NCBI GenBank assembly: GCA_002425885.1
Contig: DINC01000097.1
Location: 1-13,211, forward strand
Length of the DNA stretch: 13,211 bases
From: Spirochaetia bacterium UBA5550
GTDB taxonomy: Bacteria > Spirochaetota > UBA4802 > UBA5550
Direction: 5' to 3'
The translations under genes were made by a program, and so were the position numbers. Below, piece after piece: positions 1-9,171 of the stretch (the first letter of the stretch is position 1; each line of letters starts with the position of its first letter). Below the pieces are notes generated by a model. The model was not told where the DNA came from, did not search any database, and worked only from the letters and a program-made list of their open reading frames with translations.

Positions 1-188
1 TTAACACAGTTAATCAGCAGGTCAGGATTGAATTCACTGACCTCCTCCAGTTTCATAAAGCGCTTAATATTTATGAAATGTTTCATGTTGCGGGGATCAA
101 TATCAAAGACAGCTACATCGTGGTCAAAACAAAGCTCTTCAACAAGCCAGCTCCCCATTTTCCCTGCGCCGATAATAAATATTTTCAT
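1..188 (-). CDS. tyrA: Probable prephenate dehydrogenase, N-terminal 62 residues (cut by window edge)
   Basis: The product probably oxidises prephenate to 4-hydroxyphenylpyruvate with NAD(P)+, the committed step to tyrosine. Only 62 codons are visible. They begin MKIFIIGAGKMGSWLVEEL, a Rossmann GxGxxG dinucleotide-binding fold. An acidic FDIDPR stretch follows at the end of beta-2 (about residues 28-33), then DLLINCV as the next strand near the edge. The ATG shares one base with the TAA of pheA (TAATG), and a GGAGAG ribosome binding site lies inside the end of pheA, so the two are translationally coupled. Catalytic residues lie outside the window. The call rests on the Rossmann start, the position after pheA in an otherwise complete Phe/Tyr operon, and a remembered resemblance to Bacteroidota-type TyrA. 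Another Rossmann dehydrogenase cannot be excluded. Confidence 0.75.
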   Translation of the reverse strand, partial: MKIFIIGAGKMGSWLVEELCFDHDVAVFDIDPRNMKHFINIKRFMKLEEVSEFNPDLLINCV

Positions 189-1267
189 TAAATCTCTCCT
201 ATCATCATATCATCAGTTATAAATCTTTCACAGTAGCACCCTAACAGCTTAAGGTCTGATGTCGCTTCGGCTGCAAGTTCAAGAGCCTCCTGGATTGCGG
301 GGTCTTTGTCAGATCCATCAAAATCAAGGAAGAATGAATAATGTCCCGGTTCAGTGGGGATTGATTCAATTCGCGTGAGGTTGATCCCTCTTTTCGCGAA
401 TATTTCAAGAGTGCTGAAAAGAGTTCCGGATTTGTGTTCGGTTGTGAAAGTAATAGAACATTTATTCCCCTGACTCTCTCTGTTTTCTTTAGCAAGAATG
501 AGAAATCTTGTTCTATTAATATTTGAGTCTTCAACATTCTCTTTAAGAATTTCTAGGTTATAAAGTTCAGCAGCAAGTTTACCCGCAATGCATGCAGTGG
601 CGCGGGGTTTCTTCTCTGTAAGCATCATCGCAGCTCCTGCAGTATCATAGAAAGGAACCGGAATGAGATTATTACGGAAAAGAAAATTTCTGCACTGGGA
701 GAGTGCCTGTGAGTGTGAGTATACTTCGCGAATCTCCCTGTGGTCGGTCCCCGGCAGCATCATGAGACTGTGATGTATAGGCATGTCAACTGCTCCAACG
801 ATGTGAAGTTCAGTATTGATGAGGAGTTCGTTTACCGGCCCCACGATTCCGCCGAGAGTATTCTCAACCGGAACCACACCATAATCAAACATTCCTGAGT
901 GCACACCTTCAAAAACTCCGTTGAAAGTTGTGCACGGGATAGTCAGGAGATCCCGGTTCCATCTTCTGGCAGCCTCTTCGCTGTACGCACCATGCTCCCC
1001 CTGGAATCCTATTACCTGGTAATTCCTTGACTGGAGTTCCTTGCTCCATGAAATAACAAGTTTGTACATCGATTCTGTGAACGAAGGTTCAAGCAGGAGA
1101 TTGGGCGTATGCTTGATCTTCTCAATAATCTCCTTTTCACGCGCAGGGTCTTCAATACTTGTTTTAAATTTATTGGCAAGCAGGGCCTGCTCCATCCTGT
1201 CATTAAGAAGTTTGAGAATCCTGGAATCGATCTGGTCTATTGTGTTTCTTATCTCTTCAAGTTTCAT
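188..1267 (-). CDS. pheA: Bifunctional chorismate mutase / prephenate dehydratase (P-protein)
   Basis: The enzyme converts chorismate to prephenate and then to phenylpyruvate, the precursor of phenylalanine, in the cytoplasm. Its 359 residues match the P-protein family length. Residues 1-80 are an AroQ-type chorismate mutase helical domain with the expected basic residues (R7, R24, K33, R43). Residues 83-265 are prephenate dehydratase, with the start GFQGEHGAYSEEAA, the segment VPVENTLGG and the catalytic NRTRF motif (TRF at 253-255). Residues 271-350 are a C-terminal ACT domain. In P-proteins this domain binds Phe for feedback inhibition through GALV and ESRP motifs; here those read SGTL and ESIP (301-304). 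The ATG is preceded by GGAG with 7 nt spacing and lies 13 nt after the aroC stop. Confidence 0.96.
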   Translation of the reverse strand: MKLEEIRNTIDQIDSRILKLLNDRMEQALLANKFKTSIEDPAREKEIIEKIKHTPNLLLEPSFTESMYKLVISWSKELQSRNYQVIGFQGEHGAYSEEAARRWNRDLLTIPCTTFNGVFEGVHSGMFDYGVVPVENTLGGIVGPVNELLINTELHIVGAVDMPIHHSLMMLPGTDHREIREVYSHSQALSQCRNFLFRNNLIPVPFYDTAGAAMMLTEKKPRATACIAGKLAAELYNLEILKENVEDSNINRTRFLILAKENRESQGNKCSITFTTEHKSGTLFSTLEIFAKRGINLTRIESIPTEPGHYSFFLDFDGSDKDPAIQEALELAAEATSDLKLLGCYCERFITDDMMIGEI

Positions 1268-1280
1268 ATCTATGCTCCAT

Positions 1281-2261
1281 TTAAATATATGCTTTATTTA
1301 TAAGATACATGTCTGCGGAAACAATGGCAGCGCATGCTTCGAATACAACCGGTGTGCGGAGGGCTATACATGCATCATGCCTTCCGCGTATTTCAAGGAG
1401 TTCAGTCAAACCGCTTGAAAAATTCAATGTATGCTGCTGCTGACTGATGCTTGGTGTCGGCTTAACGGCAACTCTGAATACTATTTCATTGCCGTTTGTT
1501 ATCCCGCCATTGATTCCCCCTGCATTGTTTGTTGCTGTTTTGCCGTCTGGTGAAATTATTAAGTCATTGTTTTCACTCCCTTTCATTTTTGAAGAGAAAA
1601 AACCGGCTCCAAACTCTATACCCTTAACTGCCGGAATAGAAAAAACTAAATGACTCAGTACTGACTCATAAGAGTTGAAAAAAGGTTCTCCAAGCCCGCA
1701 GGGTAGGCCTGAAACTTTTACCTGTATAATCCCCCCCAGCGAATCCCCGTTTTTAACCGCTTCATCAAGGAGAGAGGCGTAATCCTTATTGCCCCCTATC
1801 TCGAGGATCTCAGATGTTATCTCCTGCAGCGGGTTAATCTTTTTTGCTATAGATCCGGCAGCTACAATGGCAAGAGTGACTCTCCCGGAAAAATGTCCGC
1901 CACCTCTGTAGTCATTGAACCCGTGATACTTTGTCATTGCAGTAAAATCTGCATGACCGGGTCGCGGATGTGACCTCAATGATTCATAATCCCCTGAACG
2001 TGTATTGCTGTTTCTGAAAATTATGGTCATTGGTGCGCCTGTAGTGCGGCCGTTAAATACACCGCTTAAAATTTCAGGTGAATCCGCCTCGACTCTCGGT
2101 GTTGTTCCCTGAGCTCCCGGTTTTCTTCTGGCAATATCCTTTTCCATGTCCGCTTCAGAGAATTCAATCCCTGCGGGAATTCCGTCTATAGAAGCTCCTA
2201 CAGCAGGGCCGTGGGATTCTCCGAAAAGAGATACTCTGAATAGCGTTCCAAAGCTGTTCAT
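1281..2261 (-). CDS. aroC: Chorismate synthase
   Basis: The enzyme makes chorismate from EPSP with reduced FMN as catalyst, the last step of the common shikimate pathway. The 326-residue protein is slightly shorter than the E. coli enzyme (about 360). Visible family motifs are FGESHGPAVG near residues 13-22, RRKPGAQGTTPR near 45-56, RPGHADFTAMTKYHG near 100-114, RGGGHFSGR at 119-127 and, near the C-terminus, GGINGGITNGNE and GRHDACIALR. The GGHFSGR form is a known variant of the RSSARET loop seen in other family members. The start ATG overlaps the aroA TGA by 4 bp (ATGA), so translation is probably coupled. The next gene, pheA, uses its product directly. Confidence 0.97.
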   Translation of the reverse strand: MNSFGTLFRVSLFGESHGPAVGASIDGIPAGIEFSEADMEKDIARRKPGAQGTTPRVEADSPEILSGVFNGRTTGAPMTIIFRNSNTRSGDYESLRSHPRPGHADFTAMTKYHGFNDYRGGGHFSGRVTLAIVAAGSIAKKINPLQEITSEILEIGGNKDYASLLDEAVKNGDSLGGIIQVKVSGLPCGLGEPFFNSYESVLSHLVFSIPAVKGIEFGAGFFSSKMKGSENNDLIISPDGKTATNNAGGINGGITNGNEIVFRVAVKPTPSISQQQHTLNFSSGLTELLEIRGRHDACIALRTPVVFEACAAIVSADMYLINKAYI

Positions 2262-3505
2262 TTAACCATTACCCCCAGCTTTATTATGTGGTCAAAAAAT
2301 TCATTGTACGACTTGTTTACGCATTCCGCACCGTTTATTGCAACAGGTGAATCTGCTCCAAGTGCAGCGATTGCACACATCATTGCAATTCTGTGATCGC
2401 CGTGTGATTCAACTTCTGCTCCATGAATCTGTGATCCTTTTATTACTAAACAGTCAGGGTGAAGATCTACAACAGCGCCGAGTTTTTCCATCTCTGTTTT
2501 AATAGTCATACCTCTGTCGCTTTCCTTGTGTTTGAGTCTCTCAGCGCCATGAATTACTGTTTCACCATTACAGTAAACCGCCAGTGCTGCAAGAGGGGGG
2601 AAGAGATCCGGACATTCAGAAGCATCAAACTCAAATCCGTTAAGCGTGCTTTTTTTAATTTTAATTGAGTTTGAGGAGATTGCTATATCCGCTCCTGCTT
2701 TGCGGAGTGCTGTGACAATTCCCCTGTCAGGCTGATCTGAATCAATACTGATCCCGGTGACAGTAATATCGCCTGCAATGGCTCCTGCACAGAGGAGAAA
2801 TGCCGCTCCGCTCCAGTCCCCTTCAATGTCAACTATTCCGGGGATAAATTTCTGGTTCCCTTTTACCATGAATTCACTGTATCCCCTGTTATCAATTTCA
2901 ATAGAGAATTTTTTCAGTATATTAATTGTAAGATCAATATACTCTCTGCTTTTCAGGTTTCTGACTTTAAGAAGTGAGTCATTTTCACATAACGGGAGAG
3001 CCATGAGTAATCCTGTGAGGAACTGGGAACTCATGCTGCCATCTATTTCTGTTTCCCCCCCCTTCAGCCTGCCGGTAACTTTAATAGGGAGCTTCCCGTT
3101 ACTGGAGGATATAACAGCGCCCAGTTCCCGCAAGGGTTCTTCTATGGCTGATACAGGCCTTTCAGCAAGGGATTTTTCCCCTGTCAGTATAAGTTCTTTA
3201 CCTGTAAGAGCCGCAATAGGGGTAAACATCCTTATGCAGAGTCCGGATTCGCCGCAATGTAAGTTATCAGCAACAGGTTTAAGTCCGCCATTGATTATCA
3301 CACAATCAGATTTCAACTTTATTTTTGCGCCAAGTCCTTCAGCAACGCGCATTGCAGCTAAAGAATCATCACAGAATGTGGGGTTCACAAGGAGGCTCTC
3401 GCCATCCGCAAGGAGTGCCGCCGCTATGCTGCGCTGCATTGCGCTCTTTGATGCAGGGGCATTAATGCTGCCTCTTAAATCAGAGGGATAAATATATTTC
3501 TTCAT
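2258..3505 (-). CDS. aroA: 3-phosphoshikimate 1-carboxyvinyltransferase (EPSP synthase)
   Basis: The enzyme transfers the enolpyruvyl group of PEP to shikimate-3-phosphate. The 415 residues are the normal length for two inverse alpha/beta domains. Visible motifs are the substrate-binding SKS at 19-21 with R25, GESGLCIR at 85-92, SSQFLTGLLMALP at 159-171, the catalytic Asp in CPDLFPP (D300), KESDR at 327-331 and DHRIAM at 370-375. The GESGLCIR segment replaces GNAGTAMR of E. coli, changing the residues at the positions of T97 and P101 (see findings). The ATG has a GGAG ribosome binding site 8 nt upstream and lies inside the 3' end of aroEK, overlapping it by 26 bp. It overlaps aroC by 4 bp. 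Confidence 0.97.
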   Translation of the reverse strand: MKKYIYPSDLRGSINAPASKSAMQRSIAAALLADGESLLVNPTFCDDSLAAMRVAEGLGAKIKLKSDCVIINGGLKPVADNLHCGESGLCIRMFTPIAALTGKELILTGEKSLAERPVSAIEEPLRELGAVISSSNGKLPIKVTGRLKGGETEIDGSMSSQFLTGLLMALPLCENDSLLKVRNLKSREYIDLTINILKKFSIEIDNRGYSEFMVKGNQKFIPGIVDIEGDWSGAAFLLCAGAIAGDITVTGISIDSDQPDRGIVTALRKAGADIAISSNSIKIKKSTLNGFEFDASECPDLFPPLAALAVYCNGETVIHGAERLKHKESDRGMTIKTEMEKLGAVVDLHPDCLVIKGSQIHGAEVESHGDHRIAMMCAIAALGADSPVAINGAECVNKSYNEFFDHIIKLGVMVK

Positions 3506-4781
3506 TTATTAACTCCACAATCTCTTCAGGTGAATCCCCGGAGAGTACAAGGGTTCCGTATAACGAAGCGTAGAGATGCTTACGCATTTCAAAAAGCTGT
3601 GTCAGCTGCTCCGGGCTCTCCATATTTTGCAGCAGAGGCCGGGTACCGTCATTTCCCCTCTTCAGGGTTTCTTCCATTGATGTATAAAGCCAGAAAGGGA
3701 GAGTCTCCTCTGTCAGGAAGTTTCTGTTTTGTTCTTTCAGCACTGCACCGCCGCCGCAGGAGATCACGATGTTGCTTTTTCCTTTAAAAGAAAGAAGCAT
3801 GTCAGATTCCATCTCTCTGAATTTATCTTCTCCATAATTTTTGAAAATGCCGGAGATACTCATCGACTGTTTCTGTTCAATAATTTCGTCGGTGTCTGCA
3901 AATTCATATCCGAGCTTTTCAGCCAGCATCCGGCCCGCGCTGCTCTTCCCTGATGCCATGAAGCCTGTGAGCGAGATTATGCTTTTCTTTGTAACTGTGC
4001 GTTCAAGCGCTGAAGAAAGTATCTCTCTCTCCGGAAGAAATCCGAGAAAGTGTCTGCATGCATGAATCCCCTGGTGTATAAGCCACTCTTCACCGCCGAT
4101 AAATGCTGCGCCTGCCTTCTGTACTGTATTTTTGTAATGAGATTTTTTATATCCTGCGTCAAAAAAAAGCGCATTACTTCTGATTCCGGAAATGTCCAGC
4201 TCACCTATTTCATAAGGTATAGTATTAATTATAATATCTGCGCTGCCTATAACATCAGGGAGAAGTTCGAGATTTTTAAAATCAGCACCTGTTTTTAAAG
4301 CCGCTGCTTTACCCTGATCCTCGAATTTATTCAGGATAATAACTTCAGCGCCTTTCTGTCTCAGGCCGAAAGCTGCGGCAATACCGGCCCCGCCTGCGCC
4401 CAAAACAAGGCACTTGCTTGCCGAAAGGTTACCCGCTCTCATTTCGAGAGGTTCAGTAACACCGAAATGGTCAGTATTATAACCCGTAAGTGATCCTTTA
4501 CTATTAATAATGGTGTTCACTGCGCCGATAGAATTTGCATCACCTGATACTTTATTTAAAAAAGGGATAACACTCTCTTTAAATGGAGCTGTTATATTCA
4601 CCCCGTTAAAACCAAGCTCATTTATAAGCCGGACTGCATCTGCCGCGGTTTTTACGGCACACCTTACATAGGCTCCGTTTAATCCCCGGTTACGGAATAT
4701 CTCCCTGAACATCAGCGGACTTCTGCTGTGAAGTACCGGTTTCCCTACAACGCCCAGTAGAATGTTGTCAGCCGCGTTCAC
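3480..4781 (-). CDS. aroEK: Shikimate dehydrogenase - shikimate kinase fusion
   Basis: This single 433-residue chain would reduce 3-dehydroshikimate to shikimate and then phosphorylate it. Residues 1-262 are an AroE domain: SRSP at 19-22 (shikimate binding), NITAPFKES with the catalytic Lys at 68, GAVNT at 86-90, YNTDHFG with Asp at 104, an NADP-binding GAGGAG at 128-133, and the late GGEEWLIHQG with Gln at 237. Residues 267-433 are an AroK domain: Walker A GFMASGKS at 273-280, DTDEI at 296-300, FREME at 321-325, CGGGAV at 342-347, the lid segment with RPLL at 381-384, and R400 with Y404. All key residues appear present in both halves, and no stop or frameshift separates them. The start is GTG, overlapping the aroD TGA (GTGA). 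Confidence 0.96.
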   Translation of the reverse strand: MNAADNILLGVVGKPVLHSRSPLMFREIFRNRGLNGAYVRCAVKTAADAVRLINELGFNGVNITAPFKESVIPFLNKVSGDANSIGAVNTIINSKGSLTGYNTDHFGVTEPLEMRAGNLSASKCLVLGAGGAGIAAAFGLRQKGAEVIILNKFEDQGKAAALKTGADFKNLELLPDVIGSADIIINTIPYEIGELDISGIRSNALFFDAGYKKSHYKNTVQKAGAAFIGGEEWLIHQGIHACRHFLGFLPEREILSSALERTVTKKSIISLTGFMASGKSSAGRMLAEKLGYEFADTDEIIEQKQSMSISGIFKNYGEDKFREMESDMLLSFKGKSNIVISCGGGAVLKEQNRNFLTEETLPFWLYTSMEETLKRGNDGTRPLLQNMESPEQLTQLFEMRKHLYASLYGTLVLSGDSPEEIVELINEEIYLSL

Positions 4782-5419
4782 TGTGAGTTCCTTATCATAT
4801 CAATAATCTGTTTTAAAGTTGCCGAGTCGATCTGGCCGGATGCAGTCTCCCTTGCAGCATCAAGGGACGCGTAAGTGAAAGGCGCTCCGAGAAGAGGAGC
4901 CGCTATACGGGTTATCCGGCCCGTCTCGCCCATCCCTATAGAAATAACGGGCTTACCCAGGGCATACAGAGAGAGAAGTCTTGCAGCATCACTCATGCTG
5001 TTGACCTGGCATGCGATCTTTGCGATGTCAGCCCCCCCTTCAAAACACCAGTAAATAAGCTGCTCAAGCTCCCGCATAACTGGCGTTTTTGTGTAATCAT
5101 GATATGAAACTATTGTTCTGCATCCATCTGATAGAGCAGCTTCTTTGAGCTCATTTTTGTATATATCATTGCTTTCCACTTCAATGTCAACGTAAGATGC
5201 ACCATGTTTAATTGCAGATTTCAGTATCTCTTTTCTTTTATCATCATCTATTCCATCAACAGGCCTGAACGTTGCCACAGTTTTCCCTGAAGTGAACATC
5301 CGTTCAATATCATTTTCTGAGAAATTAATCCTGTCAAGACGCACTTCGGAAATTTCATGTTCCCTGATTATCCTGCATGCTTCATCGGCTGTAACATCAG
5401 CAATACTTACACAAATCAT
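4778..5419 (-). CDS. aroD: 3-dehydroquinate dehydratase, type I
   Basis: The enzyme dehydrates 3-dehydroquinate to 3-dehydroshikimate through a Schiff base. At 213 residues it is a compact member of the type I (beta/alpha barrel) family, typically 220-250 residues. The substrate-binding segment EVRLDR is at 25-30, the catalytic His is in SYHDY (H107), the Schiff-base Lys is in ADIAKIA (K134), and IGMGETGRITR carries the conserved Arg (R168). ASGQ at 193-196 supplies the late Ser/Gln of the family. The ATG overlaps the aroB TGA by 4 bp, and the stop overlaps the aroEK start in the same way. Type II dehydroquinase is excluded by size and motifs. Confidence 0.96.
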   Translation of the reverse strand: MICVSIADVTADEACRIIREHEISEVRLDRINFSENDIERMFTSGKTVATFRPVDGIDDDKRKEILKSAIKHGASYVDIEVESNDIYKNELKEAALSDGCRTIVSYHDYTKTPVMRELEQLIYWCFEGGADIAKIACQVNSMSDAARLLSLYALGKPVISIGMGETGRITRIAAPLLGAPFTYASLDAARETASGQIDSATLKQIIDMIRNSQ

Positions 5420-6480
5420 CTGAAACCTCCATCTGCTGATACGGCACCGTTAATTATATCTGACAGCTCATTGAAATCCATTGCTTTGGTAAAAGGCTCT
5501 CCATGCCCCTTGAGTAAAACAAAATTCACGCTATGGGATTCCCTCTTTTTGTCAGATTCAATTGCATCCATTATAGCCGGTATATCATCTTTATTGATAA
5601 TTTCGTTAATCCCCCCCGGCAGCCCGAAAAATTTCAGCAGAGATTTAATTTCATCAGCATAAGCTTTATCTGCATCTCCACTCATGACAGAGATATCAAG
5701 AGCAATACCCATACCTGCGGCAATCGCAAATCCGTGCTTTATACCTTTAATCTTTTCAATCGCATGGCCCACAGTATGCCCCAGATTAAGAACTCTGCGC
5801 AGATCGTTCTCCTTTTCATCAGCTTCAACAACAGAGGCCTTATATCTGACACATCTGTATACAGCTTCAGAAACTGTTTCCATCTCCATTGAGAGAATTT
5901 TTTCTTTATTAGATTGAACAAATTCATAAAGTCCCTGATTATCCAGACATGCTGTTTTAACAAGTTCAGCTATTCCGTTTATATACTCTTCGCGAGGTAG
6001 AGTTTCGAGCATTCTGTGATCACAGATTACAAATTCCGGCTGTGAAAAAACCCCTGCCATATTTTTTGTCATGCCGATATTAACTCCGTTCTTCCCGCCA
6101 ACACTTGCGTCAACCTGCGAAAGAAGTGATGTCGAAACAAAACCAAAACGGACTCCCCGCATGAAAATTGAAGCAGCAAATCCTGCAATATCAGATACCA
6201 CCCCTCCGCCTATCCCCAGAAGGAAAGTATTTCGCGTGCACCTTAATTCAATCATCTTCCGCATGATATTTTCAATTGTTGAGAGATTCTTGATCTCCTC
6301 CCCTGTGCCGATTTCAATTACAGGGAAATCATCAAACATGGCAGAGTAATGTCTGAGAATGTTTCCATCTGTGATAATCACACTGTTTTCCGGACTGGTA
6401 AACCGTCTGATTGCAGATAAACTCTCCCCTGCGTAAACAGTAGAAATTCTGTTTTCAAGAGTGATCTTAATCTCTCTCAA
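5416..6480 (-). CDS. aroB: 3-dehydroquinate synthase, probable TTG start
   Basis: The enzyme cyclises DAHP to 3-dehydroquinate, using NAD+ and a divalent metal. Counted from the TTG start it has 354 residues, normal for the family. Motifs are the nucleotide-binding GGGVVSDIAGFAAS at 91-104, the segment VSTSLLSQVDASVGGK at 115-130, and the metal-ligand region NLGHTVGHAIE (H235) with KHG (H249). An ATG at 6519 in the same frame would add 13 residues inside aroF, but it has no ribosome binding site. TTG at 6480-6478 has GGAGG about 7 nt upstream, starts just after the aroF TAA, and gives an N-terminus (REIKITLEN) that aligns with other AroB proteins. It overlaps aroD by 4 bp. Confidence 0.95.
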   Translation of the reverse strand: MREIKITLENRISTVYAGESLSAIRRFTSPENSVIITDGNILRHYSAMFDDFPVIEIGTGEEIKNLSTIENIMRKMIELRCTRNTFLLGIGGGVVSDIAGFAASIFMRGVRFGFVSTSLLSQVDASVGGKNGVNIGMTKNMAGVFSQPEFVICDHRMLETLPREEYINGIAELVKTACLDNQGLYEFVQSNKEKILSMEMETVSEAVYRCVRYKASVVEADEKENDLRRVLNLGHTVGHAIEKIKGIKHGFAIAAGMGIALDISVMSGDADKAYADEIKSLLKFFGLPGGINEIINKDDIPAIMDAIESDKKRESHSVNFVLLKGHGEPFTKAMDFNELSDIINGAVSADGGFR

Positions 6481-6481
6481 A

Positions 6482-7321
6482 TTAACCCTCCAGCCCGTCC
6501 AGCGGGTAGATTGACTCATCCATAAATTTTTTCAGTTTCAGAACTTTTGCTGTGAGATTCGCAAACTGTTCAGGTGTAAGCTGCTGGTCAGCGTCACTGA
6601 GGGCCTCTTTCGGATTGATATGAACCTCTAACAGAAGACCGTCCGCACCTGCTGCAACGGCAGCTAAGCTCATGGGCTCAATAAGGCTCAGCTTCCCTGT
6701 GCCGTGAGACGGGTCAACCATAACCGGAAGATGTGTAAGCTCTTTGATCGCTGGCACTATGCTTAAATCCAGTGTATTCCTTGTATAAGTTTCAAAAGTC
6801 CGTATTCCCCTCTCGCAGAGTATTACATCGGGATTCCCCTCGGCAAGAATATATTCGGCGCAGTTCAGCCATTCTCTGAGAGTTGAGTACATCCCCCTCT
6901 TAAGTAGAACAGGCTTGTTTGATTTACCCACCTCTTTCAGAAGAGAGAAATTCTGCATATTTCTCGCACCGATCTGGAGGATGTCGGCATACTCGCAAAC
7001 CCATGAAACGTCGCGGGGGTCGATAACCTCAGTTACTATGGGGAGCCCGGTTTTAAGTTTAGCCTTTTCAAGGATTTTAAGCCCTTTAAGTCCAAGACCC
7101 TGGAAGTCATAAGGTGAGGTTCTCGGCTTAAAGGCCCCTCCCCGGAGCATATTGCCTTTCCCCTGTTTAACAGCTTCCGCTGTGAGCATAGTCTGCTCTT
7201 CACTTTCAACACTGCATGGGCCTGCAATTATCATGAAATCCTTTCCTATTTCACAGTTGCCGACCTTAATCGTGCTTTTTCTGGCTGAATCTTCTGATTT
7301 TACAAGTTTAAGATTCTTCAT
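6482..7321 (-). CDS. aroF: 3-deoxy-7-phosphoheptulonate (DAHP) synthase, type I-beta, no regulatory domain
   Basis: The enzyme condenses PEP and erythrose-4-phosphate to DAHP, the entry step of the pathway. The 279 residues are a bare I-beta (KDO8P-synthase-like) barrel. Visible motifs are IAGPCSVES with metal ligand C36, [16 protein letters not shown] at 60-75, IGARNMQN at 117-124, LLKRGM at 139-144, DPSHGTG with H206, and [17 protein letters not shown] with E232 and D243. Family members such as the Thermotoga and Bacillus enzymes carry an N-terminal ferredoxin-like or chorismate mutase domain that mediates feedback inhibition. Here only about 25 residues precede the barrel, so allosteric control by a fused domain is absent. 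The ATG has GGGAG 9 nt upstream and follows the attenuator terminator by about 35 nt. This is the first structural gene of the operon. Confidence 0.97.
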
Positions 7322-7356: not shown

Positions 7357-7397
7357 AAAAAAAAAAGACCCTTTGAGTTTCATCAAAGGGTCTTTTT
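7357..7397 (-). terminator. Intrinsic terminator (attenuator) in the aro leader
   Basis: Read on the minus strand, AAAAAGACCCTTTGA (7397-7383) pairs perfectly over 15 bp with TCAAAGGGTCTTTTT (7376-7362). The loop is TGAAAC, and the T run is ten long (7366-7357). It stands between the aro promoter and aroF with no gene end immediately before it other than the leader peptide, so it would cut transcription before the first structural gene. It can also catch read-through from the upstream chemoreceptor gene. Confidence 0.92.
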
Positions 7398-7498
7398 ATA
7401 TATACCTGGATAAAACTCGCGTCACACTACTATATAGTTACCATGAAAGTAAAAATAAAAATAACCAAAGCTGAAAGACTTCGGTTCTGTGAGCGCGA
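7375..7498 (-). promoter_or_regulatory. Attenuator alternative pairings: protector hairpin and antiterminator
   Basis: Two further pairings are visible by eye on the minus strand. First, TCGCGcTCACA (7498-7488), just before the Phe/Tyr codons, pairs with TGTGACGCGA (7426-7417) over 10 bp with one bulged C; this enclosing stem includes the leader stop codon. Second, GAGTTTTATC (7418-7409), starting 3 nt after that stop, pairs with GATGAAACTC (7384-7375) over 10 bp including one G-U. The second helix consumes the loop and the top 2 bp on each side of the terminator and so should act as antiterminator. The two helices share 2-3 nt, so they compete. No folding energies were computed. Confidence 0.65.
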
Positions 7499-7535
7499 AA
7501 GCTGCATTTGCAGTATTTTTCATCAAGTTTTTCAT
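7422..7535 (-). CDS. Phe/Tyr-rich leader peptide of the aro operon
   Basis: This 37-codon ORF begins MKNLMKNTANAAF and runs through FSFGYFYFYFHGNY to a TGA at 7424-7422. It contains six Phe and four Tyr codons; codons 21-34 (7475-7434) hold nine of them. There is no Trp codon. It lies between a TTGACA promoter and a strong terminator upstream of the complete aromatic operon, the arrangement of classical amino acid leader peptides such as E. coli PheL. A ribosome stalled on Phe/Tyr codons would leave the antiterminator arm free. A ribosome reaching the stop would cover that arm, which starts 3 nt later, and allow termination. The weak points are that no clear Shine-Dalgarno precedes either the first ATG or the in-frame ATG at codon 5, and the 5' leader is short (about 17 nt). 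Confidence 0.8.
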   Translation of the reverse strand: MKNLMKNTANAAFALTEPKSFSFGYFYFYFHGNYIVV

Positions 7536-7558
7536 AGGTTTTAATTCAATTAATGTAG

Positions 7559-7587
7559 CAGATATAGCTGACTGCCTGGTCTGTCAA
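7559..7587 (-). promoter_or_regulatory. Promoter of the aro operon
   Basis: On the minus strand, TTGACA is at 7587-7582, a consensus -35. Two -10 readings are possible: TATCTG at 7564-7559 (17 nt spacer) or TATATC at 7566-7561 (15 nt spacer). The 30 nt upstream are runs of A and T that could act as an UP element. Transcription would start near 7552, about 17 nt before the leader-peptide ATG. The -35 is clear and the -10 is imperfect. Confidence 0.6.
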
Positions 7588-7614: not shown

Positions 7615-9171
7615 TTAAACAATAATCTCTCCGGTCATCCCCCGCAGCCCTTCAGCAATGTCATTGAGTATCCTTGTGGATTCATTTATCCTCCTTGAAA
7701 TATTTACAATTTCCCCGGCCTGCACAGCAATATCGGATGTTGTGTGACTCGATTCCTCTGTTGCTCTTCGCTGTTCAGTTGTGGATGATTCAATAGATTT
7801 GCTGAAATTATGAACTCTGTCATTCAGATTTCTTATTGTTTTTATTGTGATGTCAATATCACCGATTTTATCAACTGCCACATCAATCTGTTCCTTTATT
7901 AAACGGATAGACTCATGCAGTTTATCTGTCAGAGATGATGAATCCCCTATAAACATTGAGCTTTCATCGATAAGTTTGGTGCTTTCGTTAATAATTCTTT
8001 CAATCTCCTTTGAGTTTCTTGTGGTTTCATCTGCGAGCTTGGAAATCTGTTCAGCAACTATGGCAAAACCTCTACCAGCTGTACCGGCCCGGGCTGCTTC
8101 AATTGAAGCATTTAAGGATAGAAGATTTACATTGTCAGCAATATCATTGATAAGCTGTATAAAATTCGACATTTCCCGGCTTTTTTTCTGTACTGTGGAA
8201 AACCTCTCTTTTGTTGTTTCAATCTGGGAAAACGATTTCTCAGAAAAGGAGAGTACTTCGCCAAGTGATTTCTGTACCTGCATGGAATCATTTTGCAGAG
8301 AATCATTCACCATTTTCAGATCGCTTATAGCTTCAACTGTAATATCCATCTCTTCGCAAAGAGAACGTGAGGTGCTGCTCACTGCGTCAGCGTCATTTGC
8401 AAGAGTGTCCAGTGAAACCGTTATCTGTTTAAGTGCCGCAGCCTGATTCTCGGAGATATCATTCATACTGGTGGAGATCTTCTCCTGCTCTGAAGCATGT
8501 TTTTTCATTAACATGATTGAATTGAGCACTGATCTTGCCATCTCTTTCAGTGAGCTGACATTTTCCAGTGACTCATTATGCTTCGCAACAGTGAGTTTCA
8601 GAAGATGCCGCGCAGCAGAAGCCCCTGTGGTTGCTCCAAGGCCCACCATGCAGTAAACAATATACCTGACAATAATATTACTTGCAGGGCCTCCGGGTAT
8701 AAGCTCCGGCCTGTATATAAAAGAAGCTGTCTGGGCAGTCACTACAAGTATGAGGCTGTAAATGCATAACCATGGATTAAAATAGAAGATACTGAGGGTC
8801 AGAGCAATATAGTTTGCTGCGAAAAGTTCAGGCGCTCCAAAAAAAGCAGTCTGAAAAATCATGAGACAGACAAAAATTGAAGTGAGAGTAATGTATCCTG
8901 AAAATATTGTCCCCGGCCGTTTTCTAATGAGAAGTTCGGAAACAATGAGTATCCCTGAAATAACAGCAATCTCAACAGCAATAGTTGAATATGTCAGATA
9001 TTGTGAGCCCTTACCTGTAAATTTTATCAGGGTCACAGATATGTTGGCAATAACCATAATAGATAGAAAAGCTTTAAGCATTCTTCTATTATTTGTGTGC
9101 ATTATTTCTGAGAAAATTGAAGATTTTGTCAGTTTTACGTCATCGATATTATTTTCTGGCCCCCGGTTCAT
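7615..9171 (-). CDS. Methyl-accepting chemotaxis protein with multi-pass membrane sensor, no HAMP
   Basis: This 518-residue receptor would signal to CheA/CheW. The N-terminal region has about six hydrophobic segments (roughly 33-51, 60-82, 88-111, 118-134, 135-153, 165-185) with only short connecting loops, so there is no large periplasmic ligand domain. Residues 190-518 form a long coiled-coil cytoplasmic domain. The conserved hairpin tip is at about 342-385 and includes [15 protein letters not shown] and [18 protein letters not shown]. No HAMP domain is evident between membrane and coiled coil, and the C-terminus (GMTGEIIV) has no CheR-docking pentapeptide. GGAGGG precedes the ATG. It ends about 30 nt before the aro promoter on the same strand, with no convincing terminator between. 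The ligand is unknown; the membrane region may itself sense, as in several spirochaete receptors. Confidence 0.93.

Follow-up and report, generated by a model that had tools for sequence, protein, structure and literature searches.

The pheL and trpL leaders of Escherichia coli combine control codons with a terminator, an antiterminator and an anti-antiterminator, the stop codon being placed such that the terminating ribosome favours the terminator, and the trp and pheA attenuators follow an arrangement of regions 1:2, 2:3 and 3:4. Multivalent leaders, in which one leader holds codons for several amino acids, precede ilvGMEDA and thr of E. coli. Before the aroF operon of Corynebacterium glutamicum lies AroR, a Phe-Tyr-Phe leader that acts by transcription attenuation and, in the passages covered, is responsive to Phe with no effect of Tyr (PMC11802643); the same leader is also treated in part of PMC4046766. 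The uORFC-13-1 motif of Acholeplasma, as the passages covered from PMC8632094 describe it, is a predicted upstream open reading frame that contains one or more Phe codons and is followed by a terminator and aroF; its 24 representatives come from Acholeplasma and environmental DNA. As for comparative work, the excerpts of PMC2659441 list aroF with a tyr-tRNA attenuator hypothesis, those of PMC1262725 report no conserved structures upstream of the Phe or Tyr operons of Actinobacteria, and PMC4833913, likewise in excerpt, is a further comparison paper. Among the open-access literature matches listed, none concerned an aromatic attenuator in spirochaetes.

A leader reading frame before the aro operon of an uncultured spirochaete

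We analysed the whole of a 13,211-nucleotide stretch (hereafter the window) from Spirochaetia bacterium UBA5550, an uncultured spirochaete, in which an initial annotation had proposed a 37-codon open reading frame (ORF) with nine Phe/Tyr codons in 14, lying between a TTGACA promoter and a terminator directly before aroF. All of these elements were confirmed, on the minus strand (Table 1), and sequence comparison leads us to read the locus, with a probability of roughly 0.86, as a ribosome-mediated transcription attenuator of the aromatic amino acid operon that would respond to the supply of Phe and Tyr.

Table 1. Positions of the leader, its RNA elements and the operon genes within the window.
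Feature	Position	Strand	Basis or remark
-35 hexamer TTGACA, leader promoter	7582..7587	minus	perfect match in sequence
leader peptide ORF	7422..7535	minus	37 codons + TGA; MKNLMKNTANAAFALTEPKSFSFGYFYFYFHGNYIVV
candidate anti-antiterminator 5' arm (region 1), UUCGCG-UCAC	7489..7499	minus	minimum-energy fold
pause-like hairpin AACCGAAGU/GCUUUGGUU	7463..7486	minus	9 pairs; U-rich Phe/Tyr codons directly after
control codons FSFGYFYFYF (Phe/Tyr 8/10)	7446..7475	minus	sequence
candidate anti-antiterminator 3' arm (region 2), GUGACGCGAG	7416..7425	minus	minimum-energy fold; overlaps stop codon and antiterminator
antiterminator 5' strand GAGUUUUAUC	7409..7418	minus	at most 13 bases after leader stop; pairs with 7375-7384
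antiterminator 3' strand GAUGAAACUC	7375..7384	minus	terminator loop and start of 3' arm
intrinsic terminator hairpin	7362..7397	minus	15 pairs, -19.7 kcal/mol, then T run
aroF, DAHP synthase (B. subtilis type)	6482..7321	minus	TIGR01361
aroB, 3-dehydroquinate synthase	5416..6519	minus	TIGR01357
aroD, type I 3-dehydroquinate dehydratase	4778..5419	minus	best NF002683, TIGR01093, both under curated cut-off; operon position conserved
aroE-aroK fusion, shikimate dehydrogenase and shikimate kinase	3480..4781	minus	PF08501, PF01202
aroA, EPSP synthase	2258..3505	minus	TIGR01356
aroC, chorismate synthase	1281..2261	minus	TIGR00033
pheA, chorismate mutase-prephenate dehydratase with ACT domain	188..1267	minus	PF01817, PF00800, PF01842

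Counting one ORF per stop codon, the leader is the sole one among the 160 window ORFs of 20-60 aa to hold nine Phe/Tyr codons per 14 (run FSFGYFYFYFHGNY), the runner-up holding seven. A bare pattern of six Phe/Tyr codons is common in the genome (29 matches versus 77 for the reversed control), so the significance of the run rests on its context and conservation; a chance run was rejected by conservation and controls, common though the bare six-codon pattern is.

The first base of TTGACA lies 52 bases 5' of the leader ATG, and the hexamer occurs at most 90 bases upstream in 21 of the 22 leaders of the operon and sister classes defined below. In two of these (G013 and G020) it stands just 13 and 19 bases 5' of the ATG used, so near that a later start codon is likely there. 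The leader promoter was missing from the promoter scan of the window, and no good -10 box was found at a spacing of 16-18 from TTGACA, the best candidate being TATATC (4/6, spacing 15). No Shine-Dalgarno-like sequence was seen before the window leader ATG (7536-7553), unlike at aroF in the window, which has GGGAG, and even a weak Shine-Dalgarno core was present in just 2 of the 22 leaders; the leader peptide of C. glutamicum ilvBNC is reportedly formed without a ribosome binding site. Both shortfalls, at the -10 position and before the ATG, weigh against the attenuator reading. A motif, TTTGACAGAC-N6-GTC or a near match to it, is common to the promoters at 7565-7587 of the window and at the equivalent positions in G001, G002 and G011, together with a partial palindrome (GACTTTGAAGTC in G001) that is possibly a candidate repressor operator.

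An Rfam scan of the window at gathering scores returned tRNA only, with no riboswitch, T-box or amino acid leader model, and riboswitch or T-box control was rejected in the absence of such a match. Upstream of the leader and in the same direction lies a chemoreceptor-like gene (7615-9171), whose end is 218 bases upstream of the terminator hairpin; our scan gave no terminator-like site from the end of this gene to the leader, and transcription of the gene might therefore continue into the attenuator.

Downstream of both leader and terminator, aroF starts at 7321. The claim that the leader precedes all of the shikimate genes stood for the window, whose operon contains the whole pathway together with pheA, and did not extend to G003, in whose operon neither an aroE nor an aroK match was found. 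Because the window begins at contig base 1, 187 bases past pheA, the operon is cut after that gene, and in all six operon-class relatives tyrA comes directly after pheA (PF02153 in 5/5 tested relatives; the sixth, G015, is 80% identical to the prephenate dehydrogenase homologue of G007). With pheA in the window and tyrA in 6/6 relatives, the sensor codons of the leader match the end products.

Conservation and spread of the aromatic leaders

The operon class, in which a close aroF homologue heads the operon, comprises seven genomes: that of the window (G000), G001, G002, G003, G007, G011 and G015. The alignment with relatives that the initial annotation had proposed gave the outcome it anticipated: in all seven loci the Phe/Tyr leader frame is retained together with its aromatic run, and the remainder of the peptide varies. 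These leaders share runs such as YFYFYFYG, begin with an N-terminal MK(N/S) in six cases (absent in G003), and are followed by an intrinsic terminator between leader and aroF in 7/7. The aromatic columns of the alignment, whose choice by majority favours aromatic retention, hold F, Y or W in 67 of 76 cells, and 83 of their 129 differing codon pairs stay aromatic (46 synonymous, 37 F/Y/W swaps); 68 of 363 differing codon pairs in the other columns are synonymous.

Within the window's family a DAHP synthase match (E<=1e-60) was found in 11 of 20 genomes, and all 11 have an aromatic leader ORF upstream; ten of these leaders reach seven F/Y/W in 10 codons and that of G003 reaches six (NFSYFYFF), with a terminator like the others. 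Across 125 DAHP synthase loci, hand-chosen from the matches listed and so no random sample, 31 have an upstream ORF with at least seven F/Y/W in 10 codons. This survey excludes duplicate loci, the filler stretches L259 and L260 and the G038 locus L009, and the G003 leader, at six in 10, is outside the 31 counted. At the same threshold an antisense control yielded 4/125 loci, one of them in the window's family, and other ORFs of at least 200 residues had such an upstream ORF in 1/365 cases.

Whether relatives with the same operon might lack the leader received a divided answer: it is kept in 7/7 close operons, and in family f3 the aroF-to-pheA operon occurs without such a leader in 3/3 loci examined; G038, a fourth genome of that family, likewise showed no such leader. 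Short-type aroF loci in families f35, f45 and f50 (n=9) gave no ORF at seven in 10 and three at six. By these comparisons of sequence, every genome of the window's family in which the DAHP synthase gene was found has the leader too, but the operon also occurs in lineages that lack it.

Runs such as YFYYYWYYFF and RYFFYFYYFSF mark further ORFs before DAHP synthase at L227, L228 and L229 (f24) and L224 (f14), where terminator-like hairpins follow downstream; these ORFs are likely members outside the window's order. The aromatic ORFs at L215, L217, L219 and L221-L223 (f15) end in GV-stop, and in several the stop codon is flanked by an inverted repeat of the GGCG/CGCC kind; a terminator was not found at these loci, whose output is perhaps a different one.

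A sister class of 15 leaders (families f1, f2, f4, f5 and f7) precedes another DAHP synthase, one that does not head an aro operon. An aroE-like match lies ~2.2 kb downstream at three f5 loci (L158, L171 and L175), and L169 is readable for 1.7 kb only downstream. At L169 (G008) one extra T in a T run, relative to G005, shifts the frame such that the leader stops early, which is either a real change or an assembly error. Trp occurs within the run in 11 of the 15 sister leaders, for example SKSYYFWFYYFYSRARL. A covariance model of this class (R1) matched 18 genomes among 392 of the phylum, made up of the 15 training loci, G044 and the weak matches G024 and G208, and left the operon class unmatched. 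The G044 leader has the run YFSFYFYY, with Ser at the position of Trp in most others, and the translated upstream stretches of G024 and G208 are without an aromatic run.

RNA pairings and a proposed attenuation mechanism

All seven operon-class loci possess a hairpin of 6-11 pairs that ends at most 5 bases from the start of the Phe/Tyr run, after which U makes up 8-10 of 12 bases. Hairpin and U-rich stretch together are as expected of a transcription pause site, at which RNA polymerase would pause.

The bases after the leader stop are conserved as CGAGUUUUAUC, with some variation, and pair with a stretch of the terminator loop and 3' arm that reads GAUAAAACUCG or close to it. The potential antiterminator so formed is present in 7/7 operon-class loci with 10-14 pairs (10 contiguous in the window) at -10.2 to -17.6 kcal/mol, and against shuffles its p values span 0.004-0.042, with p<=0.05 in 7/7. 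In the G001 terminator C and G replace the T and A of the others and the after-stop strand pairs with both, and in G011 and G003 both antiterminator strands differ from those of other loci with pairing retained. Pairing of the Gly-Tyr-Phe codons GGUUAUUUUU with the terminator 5' arm had been a candidate antiterminator and was dropped for the conserved after-stop strand.

Attenuation by a Phe/Tyr leader, as put forward in the initial annotation, gains support from these mutually exclusive terminator and antiterminator helices in 7/7 loci. Leader frame and run, terminator, potential antiterminator, stop-codon position and operon content are all established by comparison of the aligned loci. The complementary strands are rightly placed, from which we predict that antiterminator and terminator cannot form together and that a ribosome at the leader stop would cover the former.

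In the fold of the window leader the hairpin UUCGCG-UCAC/GUGA-CGCGAG encloses the run and takes up part of the antiterminator strand, an arrangement like regions 1:2, 2:3 and 3:4 of trp and pheA. Among the minimum-energy folds this enclosing hairpin is clear in G000, G002, G001 and G011, gives way to other pairings in G007 and G015, and is absent in G003.

The sister-class antiterminator is formed by the last codons before the stop, which pair with the terminator 5' arm and loop, and in these folds a long hairpin connects bases before the run with those after the stop. The sister helices were scored on a MAFFT alignment (A3) that is not fitted to structure, with the helix chosen from one member. 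On this basis the antiterminator helix is paired in 88.3% of cells (best slid control 53.3%), has both-sided changes in 6/8 pairs (a value that 11/500 shuffles reach) and has a covariation score reached by 0/500 shuffles; the terminator is 98.7% paired, with both-sided changes in 4/10 pairs (4/500 shuffles). The number of further pair types was not above shuffles for either the antiterminator (59/500) or the terminator (483/500). The duplex beats shuffles (p<=0.05) in 11 of 15 leaders, G013, G023, G032 and G042 failing to do so.

Folding with a ribosome placed on the stop codon left free RNA that forms the terminator in 22/22 leaders, and when the ribosome was stalled and the 3' arm incomplete, the region of the stop codon paired with that of the terminator, again in 22/22. 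Once the terminator is fully transcribed and the ribosome has stalled partway through the run, the fold of lowest energy is the terminator in 7/7 operon-class and 10/15 sister leaders; since the full-length terminator wins at equilibrium, antitermination would have to be kinetic.

The mechanism that we propose would begin with RNA polymerase starting at about 7550, as placed from the -35 hexamer, and pausing at the hairpin that precedes the U-rich run, as a ribosome begins to translate the leader. With charged Phe-tRNA and Tyr-tRNA both ample, the ribosome would reach the stop codon and cover GAGUUUUAUC, such that the terminator forms and transcription ends before aroF. Were either charged tRNA short, the ribosome would stall in the Phe/Tyr run and open the enclosing hairpin, leaving GAGUUUUAUC free to pair with GAUGAAACUC once that is made and before the terminator 3' arm is complete; with the antiterminator formed, polymerase would continue into aroF-B-D-EK-A-C-pheA(-tyrA). 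Leader translation, stalling, the pause and the response to both amino acids are steps that we infer. If the mechanism is true, the charging of two tRNAs governs, through one leader, the expression of the complete shikimate pathway and of its two end branches.

Amino acids probably sensed, and comparison with known attenuators

Of the six operon-class relatives searched, five have trpE, and upstream of the gene in three of these five (G002, L266; G001, L268; G011, L265) a short ORF contains WWW and is followed by a terminator-like hairpin; going by their sequences, these ORFs are probable trp leader peptides. The ORF upstream of G007 trpE has FFWW without a terminator-like hairpin, no Trp leader was found upstream of trpE in G003, and the window's own genome has no WW before trpE, where the contig begins ~190 bases before the trpE open frame. 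The WWW leaders at trpE would suit a division in which the Trp operon does its own sensing of Trp, and they fit the lack of Trp codons in the window leader; this agreement is suggestive. More broadly, we give even odds to the reading that many spirochaetes possess leader-peptide attenuators at the entry to the aromatic pathway, with codons tracking the products: Phe/Tyr for aro-phe-tyr, Phe/Tyr/Trp for the stand-alone DAHP synthase and Trp-Trp-Trp for trpE. If this product-tracking reading is true, a single leader senses two or three aromatic tRNAs simultaneously, with a distinctive antiterminator placed at its stop codon. Leaders with Phe/Tyr, Phe/Tyr/Trp and Trp alone form a natural series that could be used to test how codon choice decides the amino acid response of an operon.

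That the window leader senses both Phe-tRNA and Tyr-tRNA, as had been claimed, is how we would interpret its codons. It is unlikely, though well worth weighing, that the attenuator senses Phe alone in practice and that the Tyr codons are incidental or merely lengthen the stall window: AroR, a Phe-Tyr-Phe leader, answers Phe limitation but not Tyr in the passages covered, a single base separates TTY from TAY, and the U-rich run also follows a pause-like hairpin, yet the run holds Tyr and Phe codons in roughly equal numbers (YFYFYF here), Tyr codons are present in all seven operon-class loci, and tyrA follows pheA in every one of the six relatives.

Far less probable is that the hairpin at 7397-7362 is the terminator of the chemoreceptor gene, or a constitutive partial terminator, with the ORF incidental. 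The orientation of that gene and its end 218 bases upstream of the hairpin would suit such a role, but 7/7 loci retain leader, antiterminator and terminator as a set ahead of aroF, a chemoreceptor match lies upstream in just 2/6 operon-class relatives (L141 and L142), and TTGACA stands between the end of the gene and the leader. A stall caused by the nascent peptide or a free amino acid in place of a charged-tRNA shortage is similarly improbable, for although ribosome-arresting leader peptides such as TnaC exist, the residue order here is not fixed, and the F/Y swaps and drifting N-terminal part agree better with a role for the identity of the codons than with one for a set arrest sequence.

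Read as a Phe/Tyr-responsive attenuator, the locus has its closest precedent in AroR, which is alike, as far as the passages covered describe it, in being a short leader with both Phe and Tyr codons that stands at the head of an operon for DAHP synthase and acts by attenuation. The likeness that we propose is one of function; against AroR, the spirochaete run is 8/10 F/Y, the operon is the whole shikimate pathway with pheA, and tyrA in relatives, and the phylum is a different one. The initial annotation had called a mixed Phe/Tyr leader over the entire pathway unusual, which stands for the proposed control of the whole pathway; for the mixed leader ahead of a DAHP synthase, AroR is a precedent. 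A mixed run is not described for uORFC-13-1 in the passages covered, a difference from the window leader. The pheL and trpL leaders are alike in their control codons, terminator, antiterminator and stop-codon placement, with an anti-antiterminator to which the enclosing hairpin is a candidate counterpart; they have one amino acid each, whereas two are represented in the window leader, and the operon-class antiterminator would engage the terminator's loop and 3' arm where those of pheA and trp of E. coli use the terminator 5' arm. The ilvGMEDA and thr leaders concern branched-chain amino acids or Thr/Ile, whereas the window leader is aromatic. The device would thus belong to a familiar type of control, met here in a bacterial group new to it, and what is less usual about it is the Phe/Tyr/Trp sister leaders and the proposed control of a whole pathway.
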